Source of the DNA: Rhodospirillaceae bacterium
GTDB taxonomy: Bacteria; Pseudomonadota; Alphaproteobacteria; GCA-2731375
NCBI GenBank assembly: GCA_018660265.1
Contig: JABJKS010000045.1
Coordinates: 1-64,000, forward strand
Length of the DNA stretch: 64,000 nucleotides
Reading direction: 5' to 3'
The notes beneath the pieces are model-generated. The model saw only the letters and a list, made by a program, of their open reading frames with translations, did no database searches and was not told where the DNA came from. Shown here piece after piece: positions 41,433 to 48,369 of the stretch. Positions within the stretch are counted from its first letter, which is position 1, and the number at the start of each line of letters is the position of its first letter. Both the position numbers and the translations under genes were made by a program.

Positions 41433-41933
41433 ATGCAGTACGATGTGGCGAAAATTGGAGATATCGGGCCATTGCCGACGCAAAATAGCACAGGAAAGAG
41501 TGTTGTAGCCGATAGCGAGTCGGTACGACGTCGGTTGCTGGATGTAGCGCGCGTATTCGACCAGGTTCCTGTTGGTTTTTGTATCGTGGATGCAGATCTT
41601 CGCTATGTCTATGTGAATGACGCAATTGTGGCATTTAACGGGGCGTCCAGGGAAGATCATATCGGCCATACGATAGCTGAGGTTCTGCCTCACTCTGCTG
41701 CCCGCATTGAAGAGAAAATGCGACAGGTTATGACGACTACTGCGCCGGTGGTTGGCGATAAAGTGCAATACGAAAGCAAGCCGCAGCCTGGGACCATCGT
41801 CTACGGTAAGACAACATATTCCGCGATCCTTGACGAACAGGGCCGGGCCATTGGGGCAACCGCTCTGATTACGGATCTCACTGAGCAGGAAATTGCGGAA
41901 AGCGGTGGGCGTGAGGATTGCCAGACGCGCTGA
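41433..41933 (+). CDS. PAS-domain fragment, N-terminal part of a probable split sensor kinase
   Basis: 166 residues. One PAS domain (about 40-150) begins FDQVPVGFCIVDADLRYVYV and ends in the usual linker DLTEQEIAES. The frame then stops at 41931-41933. The next frame, shifted by +1, carries on exactly where a second PAS domain would begin, so a single-base shift between about 41893 and 41933 probably splits one gene. If it is real as it stands, this would be a small stand-alone PAS protein. No membrane segment is seen. Confidence 0.6.
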   Translation: MQYDVAKIGDIGPLPTQNSTGKSVVADSESVRRRLLDVARVFDQVPVGFCIVDADLRYVYVNDAIVAFNGASREDHIGHTIAEVLPHSAARIEEKMRQVMTTTAPVVGDKVQYESKPQPGTIVYGKTTYSAILDEQGRAIGATALITDLTEQEIAESGGREDCQTR

Positions 41934-44304
41934 TCAGGTCCTGAATACACTACCAGTATTGGTCTGTTATATTGACCCGGACAAGCGTTTGATATTCGCC
42001 AATAACGCCTACAAAGATATGTTCGGATTTGCCGAAGAGGAGGTTAAGGGGCGTAAATTGCAGGACGTTCTGGGCGAAGCCGCGTTCCTCCGGGCCGAGA
42101 CCCATATTGACCTGGCTTTGCAGGGGCAACCCTCGGAGTATGAAAACGCGGAAAGAACAAAAACTGGCGAATTACGCGGTTTACTGATTTCCTATGTGCC
42201 GGATTTTGACGATGCAGGCGTTGTCAAAGGGGTCATCGTCGCAATCGTCGATATTTCGGATCAACTACGCACCCAGATCGCGCTGGAAGAAAGCGAAGAT
42301 CGCCTAAATCTGTCTCTTGATGCCGGCTCCATTGGCACCTGGACATGGAATTTGGTGGATGGCAGCCATTTTTGGGATGATCGCATGGTGGCAATGACGG
42401 GCATGGTGCCCGACGCCCTGACCGGCATAATGGAAGATGACTTTGTCAAATCCCTGCATCCGGACGATGTTGCCATGGTCGAGGAAGCTGTAAGGCGGTC
42501 CTTGGAAGAAGACGTTGAGTATAATGTCACTTATCGGATTTTGCGTAGGGACGACGGTAAGGTTCGGGATATCAACGCTCTGGCATCCGTGGTTCGCAAC
42601 GATACCGGACAAGCCATAAGAATGACGGGTGTGGCTGTCGATGTCACAAAGCAAAAACAATCGGCCGCTGAATTGCAGGCAGCCTATGCCTCGCTTGAAG
42701 AACGGGTCGCCGAACGCACGGAAGCTTTAGGTAAATCCAACCAGCGCATGCAGGAGGAGATCAAGGAACGCATGCGTTTTCAGGCCGAGAAGGCGGAAAG
42801 CGAGGCCTTCGTTAATACGGTCCTTTCCAATATGGTCGATGCCTTGATCACCATCGACAAACATGGCTTGGTTTCATCATTCAATCAGGCGGCGGAAAAT
42901 ATCTTTGGATATTCAGCCGCCCAAGTGCATGGCCAAAATATCACGATGCTTATGCCCGACCCAGATCGGACCCAGCATGATCGTTATTTGTCGGACTATG
43001 TGGCGACCGGGCGGTCGAAAATTCTGGGCAAGGGCCCTCGCGAAGTTATCGGACGGCACAAAAATGGCGGCAGCCTGTTTTTGGAACTGTCTATATCCGA
43101 GGTTGTTTTTGGCGGGCGGACATTATTCATTGGTGCGCTTCGGGATATCTCAGAGCGGAAACGTCTTCAGGCATTATTTGACCGCGTCGCCGAAAATTCG
43201 CCAAATTCGATACTGCTGAAGGACCTCGACGGCCGGGTTGTATTGGTCAATCGCCTGTTTGAGGATTGGACCGGACTTTCGGCAAGCGATGTCGTGGGAA
43301 AAACGCCGCACGAAATTTATCCCAGCGAATACGCTGAGCGTGTGATCGCCTCGGATCAGCGTGTGGTTCGCACGGGGAAGGCGGAAACGGAAGAGTGGTC
43401 TACTGTATTTGCCGACGGCGTTACGCATCATCTCATGGCGACAAGTTTTCCGGTTATGGACGCAGACAATAATATCATCGGCGTCGGCACGATCAGCGTT
43501 GATGCAACCGATCTAAGAGCGACGGAACTGCAGTTGCGTCGGGCCCAGAAGATGGAGGCGATTGGCCAATTAACGGGCGGTATCGCCCACGATTTCAATA
43601 ATCTGCTCGCCATCATGCTGGGCAATTTATCGCTGCTTGGCGAGGAATTGGGGCCAGATCATGGATCCGCCGTTCTTTTGACCCCGACCCTGCGGGCGAT
43701 TGATAAGGCCTCTGCCTTGACAGCCCGAATGCTTGCCTTTTCCCGCCAACAGCCATTGGATGTGCACGAGGTGGATGTGAATGAGTTGCTGCACAATATC
43801 CAACCGCTGATCAAACGTAGCTTGATGGAAGATATTAATATTGAGTTTGGGCCAGCGTCGGAACAATGCATCTGCATTGTCGATCCGGGTCAACTTGAAC
43901 AGGCCATCTTGAATTTATCGATCAACGCCCGGGATGCCATGCCTCGGGGTGGCCGGCTGAATTTTGCAACAACAAAGGTCACCATAGGGGCAACCGACAA
44001 CCGTCCTGATAACGTAACGCCCGGCAATTATGTGATGATAACCGTGTCGGATAACGGCCAGGGCATCTCTTCCGATAATGTAGAGCGGATTTTTGACCCC
44101 TTTTTCACCACCAAGGGTGTGGGAAAGGGGTCCGGTCTTGGTTTGAGCATGGTCTACGGCTTTGTCAAACAATCAAACGGCCATGTAACTGTTGCTTCCA
44201 GGGAAAACGAGGGTACGACGTTTAAAATATTTCTGCCCGCCGGACCTAGCGCGCTTCCGGGCAATTCTGACCCATTTGATGGCATCCACGAGCCATTCGG
44301 GTAG
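41893..44304 (+). CDS. Multi-PAS sensor histidine kinase (probably the rest of a split gene)
   Basis: 803 residues if read from the TTG at 41893, though the true start may be upstream through a frameshift. PAS 1 (about 15-130), PAS 2 (about 135-250), a coiled coil (LEERVAERTEALGKSNQRMQ, about 275-295), PAS 3 (about 310-425), PAS 4 (about 430-540), then HisKA with GGIAHDFNNLLAIMLGNL (phospho-acceptor near His566) and HATPase with SDNGQGIS, FDPFFTTK and GSGLGLSMVYGF. PAS 3 resembles the heme PAS of FixL: DPDRTQHDRYLSDYVATG aligns its His362 with the heme ligand. No receiver domain follows, and the last 18 codons lie in the palindromic element at 44247-44509. No response regulator gene is adjacent. 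Confidence 0.8.
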   Translation: MRKAVGVRIARRADQVLNTLPVLVCYIDPDKRLIFANNAYKDMFGFAEEEVKGRKLQDVLGEAAFLRAETHIDLALQGQPSEYENAERTKTGELRGLLISYVPDFDDAGVVKGVIVAIVDISDQLRTQIALEESEDRLNLSLDAGSIGTWTWNLVDGSHFWDDRMVAMTGMVPDALTGIMEDDFVKSLHPDDVAMVEEAVRRSLEEDVEYNVTYRILRRDDGKVRDINALASVVRNDTGQAIRMTGVAVDVTKQKQSAAELQAAYASLEERVAERTEALGKSNQRMQEEIKERMRFQAEKAESEAFVNTVLSNMVDALITIDKHGLVSSFNQAAENIFGYSAAQVHGQNITMLMPDPDRTQHDRYLSDYVATGRSKILGKGPREVIGRHKNGGSLFLELSISEVVFGGRTLFIGALRDISERKRLQALFDRVAENSPNSILLKDLDGRVVLVNRLFEDWTGLSASDVVGKTPHEIYPSEYAERVIASDQRVVRTGKAETEEWSTVFADGVTHHLMATSFPVMDADNNIIGVGTISVDATDLRATELQLRRAQKMEAIGQLTGGIAHDFNNLLAIMLGNLSLLGEELGPDHGSAVLLTPTLRAIDKASALTARMLAFSRQQPLDVHEVDVNELLHNIQPLIKRSLMEDINIEFGPASEQCICIVDPGQLEQAILNLSINARDAMPRGGRLNFATTKVTIGATDNRPDNVTPGNYVMITVSDNGQGISSDNVERIFDPFFTTKGVGKGSGLGLSMVYGFVKQSNGHVTVASRENEGTTFKIFLPAGPSALPGNSDPFDGIHEPFG

Positions 44305-44509
44305 GCGCGTCGCGTAGCGCGATGTGGTTCATCGGGCAAGCGGCGTAACGCATCCGAATGGCTTGTGGGTGCCACCGGAGGCCGTCTTACCAAGCCCTGT
44401 GGCTGCGTTACGGTCCTTGGGAGATGCCCCACATCGCCCGGCGAACCGCGCCTACCCACAGGGCTTGGTAAGACGGTCAAATGGGTCACAATTGTCCGGA
44501 AACGCGCTA
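44247..44509. mobile_element. Palindromic MITE-like element
   Basis: A 261-bp core (44248-44508) bounded by 32-bp inverted ends, 44248-44279 and 44477-44508, which differ at only 3 positions (start AGCGCGCTTCCGGGCAATTC). Inside lie two long hairpins: arms 44280-44300 / 44354-44374 with 2 differences, and 44382-44402 / 44456-44476, perfect. The two hairpin loops are themselves inverted relatives (GTAGGCGCG...GATGTGG...GTAACGCA). TA flanks both outer ends, as expected for IS630/mariner-type target duplications. No transposase is encoded. The sensor kinase stop codon at 44302 lies within it. Confidence 0.75.
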
Positions 44510-44744: not shown

Positions 44745-46277
44745 ATGCAGGATATCCTGCGTCAGCTTGAGGCGAAGCGCGAAGCCGCGCGGGCCGGGGG
44801 CGGCGAAAAACGAATTCAAGCGCAACATAGTAAGGGCAAGCTGACAGCGAGGGAGCGGTTGGAGCTGTTGCTGGATCCGGGTTCGTTCGAAGAATACGAC
44901 ATGTTCGTCGAACATCGCAGTGAAGATTTCGGCATGGCGGACCAGCGGGTGCCGGGCGATGGTGTCGTCACGGGCTGGGGTACGATCAATGGCCGTTTGG
45001 TTTTTGTCTTCAGCCAGGATTTCACGGTCTTTGGCGGTTCGTTGTCAGAAGCGCATGCAGAAAAGATCTGCAAGATTATGGACCAGGCCATGAAGGTGGG
45101 CGCGCCGGTTATTGGTTTGAACGATTCCGGCGGGGCCCGTATTCAGGAAGGCGTCGCCTCGTTGGGGGGCTATGCGGAGGTCTTTCAGCGCAATGTCATG
45201 GCCTCAGGCGTGATACCGCAGATCTCTGTCGTGATGGGGCCGTGCGCGGGCGGCGCTGTCTATTCGCCTGCAATGACGGACTTTATCTGTATGGTCAAAG
45301 ACAGCTCGTACATGTATGTCACAGGCCCCGATGTGGTGAAGACGGTGACCCAGGAAGAGGTGACCCATGAAGAATTGGGCGGTGCCTCAACCCACAGCAA
45401 GAAATCCGGCGTCGCCGACTTGGCCTTTGAAAACGATGTGGAGGCTTTGGCGCAGGTCCGCCGGCTGTTTGATTTTCTACCTCTTTCAAACCGCGAGGCG
45501 GTGCCGCAGCGGGCGACGGACGATCCTGTTGACCGGGCGGAAAATTCTCTCGACACCTTGGTGCCGGCGAACCCGAACAAGCCTTATGACATCAAGGAAT
45601 TGCTGGGAAAAGTCGTTGATGATGGCGATTTCTATGAAATTCAGCCGGATTTCGCGGGCAATATCGTCATTGGTTTTGGCCGTATCGGTGGTGCAACAGT
45701 AGGGTTTGTGGCCAACCAGCCCATGGTGCTGGCGGGGGTGCTGGATATTGATTCGGCCCGCAAGGCGGCGCGCTTCGTACGCTTTTGCGACTGCTTTGAA
45801 ATCCCCATTGTGACATTTGTCGATGTGCCCGGATTTTTGCCCGGCACCTCCCAGGAACACGGTGCCATCATCAAACATGGTGCCAAACTGTTGTATGCCT
45901 ATGCCGAGGCGACGGTGCCCAAGGTTACCGTCATTACGCGCAAGGCCTATGGCGGGGCCTATGATGTCATGGCCTCAAAACACTTGCGGGGCGACGTCAA
46001 TTTCGCTTGGCCGGGGGCAGAGATTGCCGTCATGGGGGCCAAGGGCGCGGTCGAGATCATTTTTCGCTCGGAGCTGGATAATCCCGAACGGATAGAGGCC
46101 TTGACCCAGGAATATGCGGACACCTTCGCCAACCCGTTCATTGCCGGAAAGCGGGGCTATATCGACGATGTCATCATGCCGCACAATACCCGCCGGCGAC
46201 TGGCCAGGGCACTGACGATGCTGAAGAACAAAAAGCTCGAAAATCCTTGGAAAAAGCACGGCAACATCCCCCTCTAG
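44745..46277 (+). CDS. pccB: Acyl-CoA (propionyl-CoA) carboxylase, carboxyltransferase beta subunit
   Basis: 510 residues, the typical PccB length. It transfers CO2 from carboxybiotin to propionyl-CoA, giving methylmalonyl-CoA. The N-terminal region [20 protein letters not shown] and the acyl-CoA site [16 protein letters not shown] (about 165-180) are present. The second crotonase-like half has [20 protein letters not shown] and [12 protein letters not shown]-type sequence. Its partner pccA lies 106 bases downstream, beyond a 12-bp tandem repeat. PccB cannot be told from other acyl-CoA carboxylase beta chains with certainty by eye. Confidence 0.93.
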
Positions 46278-46285
46278 GAAGGTTT

Positions 46286-46384
46286 GTGCCAGAAGACGAA
46301 ATAGAAGACGAAATAGAAGACGAAATAGAAGACGAAATAGAAGACGAAATAGAAGACGAAATAGAAGACGAAAGTACCGATTGA
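46286..46384 (+). CDS. Possible micro-ORF of EDEI repeats, coupled to pccA
   Basis: GTG at 46286 opens 32 codons: V-P, six copies of Glu-Asp-Glu-Ile, then EDESTD and TGA at 46382-46384. The stop overlaps the pccA ATG (46384) as TGATG, a typical coupling arrangement. AGGAAGG (46276-46282), overlapping the pccB stop, provides a ribosome-binding site. The peptide would be extremely acidic. It may be a leader that couples pccA translation to pccB, or a chance reading of the repeat. No homologue is known to me. Confidence 0.35.
   Translation: MPEDEIEDEIEDEIEDEIEDEIEDEIEDESTD
46291..46374 (+). repeat. 12-bp tandem repeat between pccB and pccA
   Basis: Seven units of AGAAGACGAAAT, the last ending in G instead of T. 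The units are otherwise identical, so the array is recent or kept uniform. The 12-bp length keeps all reading frames through copy-number changes. The reverse strand would read as Phe-Arg-Leu-Leu repeats, which I regard as a shadow. Confidence 0.95.
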
Positions 46385-48369
46385 TGTTTTCAAAAATTCT
46401 CATCGCCAATCGCGGCGAAATTGCCTGTCGGGTTATCCGCTCGGCCCAGGCCATGGGCATCGCCACTGTTGCCGTCTACTCGGAAGCCGATGCCGGTGCC
46501 TTGCATGTGGAAATGGCGGATGAGGCTATTGCCATTGGCCCTGCCGCTGCCGCCGAAAGTTACCTTGTAACCGAACGCATACTCGATGCGATCAAACGCA
46601 GTGGCGCGGATGCGGTCCATCCGGGCTATGGCTTTCTTTCCGAGAACCCTGGTTTCGCGGAGGCGCTGGCCGAACGGGGCATTGCTTTCATCGGACCGCC
46701 GGTTGGTGCAATTGAGGCGATGGGAGATAAGATCGCGTCGAAAAAACTGGCCCAGGCTGCCGGGGTCAATTCCGTACCGGGCCATTTGGAAGTTTTGCTT
46801 GATGAGGATGATGCGGCCCGTATCTCTGAACAACTGGGCTATCCGGTGATGCTGAAGGCCTCGGCGGGCGGTGGCGGCAAGGGAATGCGCGTGGCCTATA
46901 CAGAGGCCGAGGCGCGGGAGGGTTTTACCTCCGCCACGAACGAGGCGATGTCCTCATTTGCAGATGACCGGGTCTTTGCCGAGAAATTTATCGAACAGCC
47001 CAGGCATATTGAAATTCAGGTGCTGGCCGATGCTCACGGCAATTGCATCTATCTGGGCGAGCGGGAATGTTCCATTCAACGACGGCATCAAAAAGTCATC
47101 GAAGAAGCCCCAAGTCCGTTCCTGGATGAGGCCACCCGTAAGGCCATGGGCGAACAGGCCGTGGCCCTGGCCCGGGCCGTTGATTATCGATCCGCGGGCA
47201 CAGTGGAATTCATCGTCGATAAGGACCGGAATTTCTATTTCCTGGAAATGAACACCCGCCTGCAGGTGGAACATCCCGTCACCGAAATGGTCTACGGCGT
47301 TGATTTGGTGGAGCAGATGATCCGCATTGCCGCCGGTGAGACCATGGGCCTGACCCAGGATGATATGCAGGCGGACGGCTGGGCCATCGAATGCCGGCTT
47401 TATGCGGAAGATCCCTATCGCAATTTCATGCCCTCCATCGGGCGTCTGACCCAGCATCGCCCACCGCCACTGAATGCTACGGTGCGGGTTGATACAGGCG
47501 TTGTCGAAGGATCAGAGATCACCATGTTCTATGACCCGATGATCGCCAAGTTGATCACCAAGGGCGCGGACCGGGCCGGTGCCATCGCGGCCATGGGCGA
47601 GGCTTTGGACGGCTATTGCGTGCGTGGCATCAACCACAATATGAGCTTTCTATCCGCCTTGATCAGCCATCCCCGTTTTGTCGAGGGACGATTGACCACG
47701 GCGTTTATTGACGAAGAATACCCGGATGGTTTTTCCGGCGCGCCACGGGCGGGCGAGGTATTGGATGCAATATTGGCCGCGGGCGTGTTGCTGCACAGAC
47801 GCACGGTTGAGCGGGCGGCGACGATCAGCGGCCAGTTGGCCCATTATCAGCCTGCGTTTGGGGCCGATTGGTCCGTCAGCCTGGATGGTGAGGGCCATCA
47901 GGTCATCGCTACTTTGGTCGAGGGCGGCATGGATGTGACGTCCGAGGGGCGGACCATCGCCGTGCGCAGTGATTGGCGGCCTGGTGCGGGATTATTCAAA
48001 GGCAGCGTAAATGGCCGCCATGTGGTCATTCAGGTGGACATGGCGGCTGATGGTTTCCGGTTGAGCCATGCCGGGGTTGAGGCGATGGTCTGCGTGCGCA
48101 GCCCCCGGGCGGCGGAACTTGCCGGCTTTATGCTGGAAAAGATTGCACCCGACACGTCTAAATATCTGCTCTGCCCCATGCCGGGATTGGTCATTTCCCT
48201 GGCGGTGGAGACAGGTGAAGAGGTTAAGGGTGGCCAGGCCCTGGCCGTGGTTGAAGCCATGAAGATGGAGAATATCCTGCGTGCCGAGCGTGACGGCATC
48301 GTTGCCATACTAAACGCTGCCCCCGGCGATAGTTTGGCGGTTGATGACATCATCATGGAATTTGAGTAG
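46384..48369 (+). CDS. pccA: Acyl-CoA (propionyl-CoA) carboxylase, biotin-containing alpha subunit
   Basis: 661 residues from the ATG at 46384. It carboxylates its own biotin using ATP and bicarbonate. The biotin carboxylase part starts FSKILIANRGEIACRVIRSA and has HPGYGFLSENPGFAEAL, the glycine-rich KASAGGGGKGMRVAYTE and the catalytic EMNTRLQVEHPVTEMVYG. The C-terminal biotinyl domain has VVEAMKMENIL, with the biotin lysine near residue 626. The in-frame TTG just before is an alternative start. Together with PccB it feeds propionyl-CoA into the methylmalonyl-CoA route. Confidence 0.94.
   Translation: MFSKILIANRGEIACRVIRSAQAMGIATVAVYSEADAGALHVEMADEAIAIGPAAAAESYLVTERILDAIKRSGADAVHPGYGFLSENPGFAEALAERGIAFIGPPVGAIEAMGDKIASKKLAQAAGVNSVPGHLEVLLDEDDAARISEQLGYPVMLKASAGGGGKGMRVAYTEAEAREGFTSATNEAMSSFADDRVFAEKFIEQPRHIEIQVLADAHGNCIYLGERECSIQRRHQKVIEEAPSPFLDEATRKAMGEQAVALARAVDYRSAGTVEFIVDKDRNFYFLEMNTRLQVEHPVTEMVYGVDLVEQMIRIAAGETMGLTQDDMQADGWAIECRLYAEDPYRNFMPSIGRLTQHRPPPLNATVRVDTGVVEGSEITMFYDPMIAKLITKGADRAGAIAAMGEALDGYCVRGINHNMSFLSALISHPRFVEGRLTTAFIDEEYPDGFSGAPRAGEVLDAILAAGVLLHRRTVERAATISGQLAHYQPAFGADWSVSLDGEGHQVIATLVEGGMDVTSEGRTIAVRSDWRPGAGLFKGSVNGRHVVIQVDMAADGFRLSHAGVEAMVCVRSPRAAELAGFMLEKIAPDTSKYLLCPMPGLVISLAVETGEEVKGGQALAVVEAMKMENILRAERDGIVAILNAAPGDSLAVDDIIMEFE

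Follow-up and report, generated by a model that had tools for sequence, protein, structure and literature searches.

RUP of Streptococcus pneumoniae, a MITE attributed to IS630-Spn1, is a short, non-coding element with IS630-like ends, a TA target and many intergenic copies; it is 107 bp long and its listed ends measure 9 bp (PMC2229807). IS630 of Shigella sonnei and ISY100 of Synechocystis, which encode their transposase, duplicate TA and move by cut and paste (PMC2170065), and a preference of IS630 for CTAG is stated in the title of Tenzen and Ohtsubo 1991, which is cited in that paper. The Correia or NEMIS elements of Neisseria are MITEs with ends of about 24 bp and TA at their edges, and the parts of PMC2229807 that deal with them mention no double hairpin. 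GTAG-tagged REPs, palindromic units of 20-40 bp that are associated with RAYT and form inverted pairs (REPINs), can supply TAG stop codons (PMC3733652), and for MITEPsy1 insertion behind CTAG or YTAA, with duplication of this target, is reported (PMC3189936).

The element described here lies in a stretch of 64,000 nucleotides that was analysed as a whole and is called the window below. Like RUP, it is short and non-coding, with many intergenic copies, IS630-like ends and a TA target; unlike RUP, it is 263 bp long, has 33-bp ends and two inner hairpins, resides in alphaproteobacterial hosts and prefers the CTAG of stop codons. It shares the TA duplication and, as we propose, cut-and-paste movement with IS630 and ISY100, but it encodes no transposase. 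Correia/NEMIS elements differ from it in sequence, size and host, whereas the REPs, with which it has GTAG palindromic units and their inverted pairing in common, are set apart by its IS630-like ends and by the absence of any association with RAYT in the loci inspected. The element is very probably a MITE of the IS630/Tc1-mariner type, presumably mobilised in trans by an IS630-family transposase and inserting at TA, preferably in CTAG. A sequence-only reading of this DNA had already suggested a non-autonomous IS630/mariner-like element, a proposal that is now supported by further copies, by sites with a single TA and by matching IS630 ends in the genus. No published description of the family was found in the open-access literature, and we regard it as a new family of IS630-type MITE, for whose kind the evidence is good. 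It adds a MITE family that is widespread in uncultured marine alphaproteobacteria.

Architecture and distribution of the element

The coordinates of the element and of the gene that runs into it are collected in Table 1. The element opens with TAGCGCG and closes with CGCGCTA, and its length of 263 bp falls to 261 bp when one of the two TAs is assigned to the target. The sequence-only reading had described a double-hairpin palindrome with TA at both edges, near-perfect inverted ends of 32 bp and hairpin loops that are inverted relatives of each other, and the present measurements agree with it: the terminal repeats span 33 bp, the 21-bp hairpin arms are complementary at 90% (left) and 100% (right) with 53 nt between the arms in each, and the whole forms a 119-nt inverted repeat at 73%, so that the two halves are inverted relatives. 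Folded as single-stranded DNA, the element reaches z = -14 against 200 dinucleotide shuffles, and the expected number of chance occurrences of its 34-bp end segment in the window is 0. Its coding content amounts to short chance ORFs. The further suggestion of a duplicated inner unit is plausible, as the halves are about 70% alike with one reversed; the duplication itself we only infer, since both halves are already there in every full-length relative.

Table 1. Positions in the window of the element, its parts and the adjoining kinase gene
Feature	Position	Strand	Remarks
PAS-type sensor histidine kinase	41893..44304	+	reads about 18 codons into the element; orthologues have a C-terminal receiver domain that is absent here
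Whole element	44247..44509	.	263 bp with both TA edges; 259 bp between the TAs
Left TA (target duplication)	44247..44248	.	other copies have orthologous element-free sites with a single TA
Left terminal inverted repeat, GCGCGCTTCCGGGCAATTCTGACCCATTTGA	44249..44279	+	matches the right end (30/33) and IS630 ends in the genus
Left hairpin	44280..44374	+	arms 44280-44300 / 44354-44374; compensatory changes
Conserved inner core, GCGCGATGTGGTTCATCGGGCAAGC	44317..44341	+	common to subfamilies with other ends
Spacer separating the two hairpins	44375..44381	.	
Right hairpin	44382..44476	+	arms 44382-44402 / 44456-44476; inverted relative of the left hairpin
Right terminal inverted repeat	44477..44507	-	matches the left end and IS630 ends in the genus
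Right TA (target duplication)	44508..44509	.	

The element is multi-copy. A DNA search of its own genome (5.5 Mb in 121 contigs) returned nine good matches that cover most of the element and two more diverged ones; the full-length copies number eleven, with boundaries set for all of them, and partial copies and lone ends are also present. Matches were found in 10 of the 11 genomes of the genus, its own included, and in 16 of 96 genomes of a wider set. The pattern of the inner core occurs in 84 stretches of GTDB genomes, all of them titled as alphaproteobacterial or proteobacterial MAGs, and for several the isolate names point to marine samples; a search of viral contigs for the core gave no copies. 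At orthologous loci, the same sequence is not conserved as coding sequence or RNA. One genome of the genus, G010, is particularly rich in copies, and its deletion forms retain the ends and drop a hairpin or parts of one.

These deletion forms bear on whether the element could be a REPIN or BIME, that is, a pair of GTAG-tagged REP hairpins in inverted orientation that a RAYT (Y1 transposase) mobilises. The motif GGGTAGGCGCG does occur in both hairpins in inverted orientation, RAYT-like genes are present in nine of the 11 genus genomes, and GTAG REPs are known to provide TAG stops (PMC3733652). However, eight RAYT loci that were examined have no GTAG-type hairpins or copies of the core alongside, what moves is the full 263-bp unit with its TA edges and IS630-like ends, and it is the ends that short forms keep while a hairpin is lost, all of which makes a REPIN highly improbable.

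Target site, transposases and stop codons

Among the 34 elements for which both edges are available, C precedes the left TA and G follows the right TA in 20, and C..A flanks seven; in the own genome, the outer C is present in every copy with clean ends except L009. Element-free sites were found by querying the joined flanks against the genus genomes, and for at least three copies the orthologous site in G006 is clean and holds a single TA: GGGGCTAT-TA-GTC (copy L003), GCGCC-TA-GCTG (L006) and GGCAGC-TA-GTTCC (L013). Since each has one TA, mostly in CTAG, the target duplication is TA, as would be predicted for an IS630/mariner-like element. For the window copy, a deletion of the left flank in comparison with the orthologues leaves no clean element-free site, and the evidence for TA thus comes from the other copies. 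The location of most copies in CTAG could also fit a MITE of another transposase family, for instance IS5-like with a 4-bp CTAG duplication as in MITEPsy1, but in the 14 of 34 copies whose outer bases are other than C..G a 4-bp repeat is absent and TA is usually found on both sides, the matching insertion sequences described below carry DDE_3 and HTH_Tnp_IS630 domains, and element-free sites show one TA; we consider an origin of that type exceedingly improbable.

Several IS630 elements are present in relatives within the genus, and the matching transposase that the sequence-only reading recommended looking for was found there, in IS630-family (DDE_3) elements with matching ends, and not in the own genome. 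Two of these are insertion sequences of G009, both situated in C-TA...TA-G. L068 is a 1.05-kb IS with two overlapping ORFs with HTH and DDE_3 domains, and its ends (TAGAGCATTTCCGACTTACTCTGACG and TAGAGCGTTTCCGACGATGACTGA) match those of the element at 23 and 21 of 33 positions; the ends of L082 match at 25 and 23 of 33. TAGAGC-like starts, taken as background, seldom go beyond about 19 matches in 33 unless they belong to the element's own copies. L082 also carries TAGAGCGTGTCGTGGCTAATCAGATTCAG, which is nearly identical to the end seen in L009 and similar copies, and a 28-bp stretch of it is identical to L046 at 26 of 28 positions; in the genus, L087 and L093 likewise match element ends with one end each. 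Over 33 bp the end matches are partial, mostly at 64-76%, and the interiors of these insertion sequences show no resemblance to the element beyond one 16-bp match. In the draft assembly of the own genome there are two DDE_3 hits, neither with matching ends, and no intact matching IS630 transposase; the copy-rich G010, also a draft, likewise yielded no such transposase.

On this comparison of ends, we propose that an IS630-family transposase would bind the 33-bp ends in trans, cut the element out and paste it at a TA, preferably one within CTAG, duplicating the TA. As TAG opens the element on either strand, a CTAG stop codon that receives an insertion regains its TAG and the gene stays intact, which allows copies to persist at the 3' ends of genes with little harm. 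An example is the L003 site: the gene there closes with TAC TAG at the element, and its orthologue in G006 closes with TAT TAG. In 21 of the 34 elements, an open frame of at least 100 codons ends exactly in the TAG formed by the edge. When the comparison was limited to elements with flanks of at least 1 kb (n=29), 19 of 29 insertions had an ORF of at least 100 codons ending at the TAG, and of the remaining CTAG sites in these sequences 31 of 86 did (Fisher p = 0.009); at a cut-off of 60 codons the difference is not significant (p = 0.08). Insertions are enriched at stop codons on evidence that we grade as moderate, given the relatedness of the copies and a cut-off of our own choosing. CTAG itself is scarce in the window, with 25 sites, about one tenth of the expectation from composition (calculated by hand, G+C 0.56). 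The choice of CTAG as target and the TAG ends on both strands make the element a clear example of near-harmless insertion at stop codons, which recalls the supply of TAG stop codons by GTAG REPs (PMC3733652).

Conserved pairing and possible exchange of ends

Thirty-three full-length copies from the genus and from GTDB align over 263 columns with zero gaps, a set preselected at 263 bp to which copies of 262, 264 and 272 bp also exist. On the fold of the window copy, 95% of the cells are paired and 59 of 107 pairs have changed on both sides, giving 320 doubly changed cells, compared with an average of 72 in shuffles and at most 60 in slid structures. Such strong covariation, with the frequent siting at stop codons, would be in keeping with a structured RNA conserved at gene ends, such as a 3'-UTR hairpin, a terminator or a riboregulator, and so would the left hairpin, which has 60 G-U against 5 A-C cells in the genus alignment (27 against 19 in the right hairpin). 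However, this excess fades in the left hairpin of representatives of divergent subfamilies (11 versus 7 and 4 versus 4) and is absent in the ends (13 versus 18), so that there is no robust signal of an RNA strand and pairing appears to be kept alike on both strands. The insertion sites are also non-orthologous between species, Rfam models applied to the whole window matched only a tRNA at 129-201 and not the element, no promoter-like site was found for the element, and the sole terminator-like site lies outside it. A conserved RNA is very unlikely in our judgement, and the pairing is probably maintained at the DNA level in a mobile element of IS630 type, for which cruciform formation, end synapsis or palindrome-templated repair are candidate reasons.

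The architecture and the core recur with other ends (TAGCCCGCATTTCTCACC, TAGAGCACTATCCG, TAGAGCGTTCTGTGATGACC, TACCAATGATCCTTGATATTG and TAGTGGCTCGACACAG), the core GCGATGTGGNNCATCGGGCAAGC being common to elements whose ends are unrelated (TAGAGC.., TAGCCCGCATTTCTCAC.., TACCAATGATCC.. and TAGTGGCTCGACAC..). Loci L149, L178, L136 and L266 combine the same inner hairpin core with unrelated ends. The ends may have been exchanged between elements or may have diverged. A transposase was sought for the TAGCCCGCATTTCTCAC ends and none was identified; these ends either enclosed the same core or were without a partner in the stretch compared. One conjecture, which we put forward tentatively and consider rather unlikely, is that selection acts on the inner double hairpin as a module in its own right, which a protein of the host or of transposition would recognise as a DNA cruciform. 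By taking on different ends, this module would have passed from one MITE subfamily to another and could make use of several transposases; the gap-free length of 263 bp over 33 copies and the core shared across unrelated ends support it. In any case, a shared core behind different ends offers a test case for function in the interiors of MITEs.

The sensor kinase locus

The element had been placed at the 3' end of a sensor kinase, and the kinase frame does run into it. The orthologues of this kinase upstream of pccB in G006, G001 and G003 have a C-terminal receiver-like stretch, recognised from the sequence motifs ILVVEDD and LLLTDVLL rather than by profile search, and end in a TAG 138-206 bp before pccB. 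The window kinase has no receiver, the break coincides with the element, and the right edge of the element lies 235 bp before pccB, comparable to the position of the stop in the orthologues. It is likely that the element entered at the kinase stop codon and that a deletion on its left side then removed the receiver. Other sequences begin at this stop codon in two of the relatives: in G001 (L307, from 1295) a short palindrome of another kind, TAGAGC...GCTCT, and in G003 (L309 from 1363, reverse strand) a remnant, CCGCGACATGCTCTA, that corresponds to the end of another copy. The site therefore seems to have been a target repeatedly.

In six members of the genus (L301, L302, L304, L305, L306 and L308), the gene upstream of pccB encodes, instead of the kinase, a different conserved protein that may be ATP12-like, and the kinase locus is thus variable. 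Further along the window, between pccB and the next carboxylase gene, a frame on the minus strand at 45975-46466 contains a run of repeated LLFR residues (FRLLFRLLFRLLF), which suggests a short tandem repeat in the DNA.
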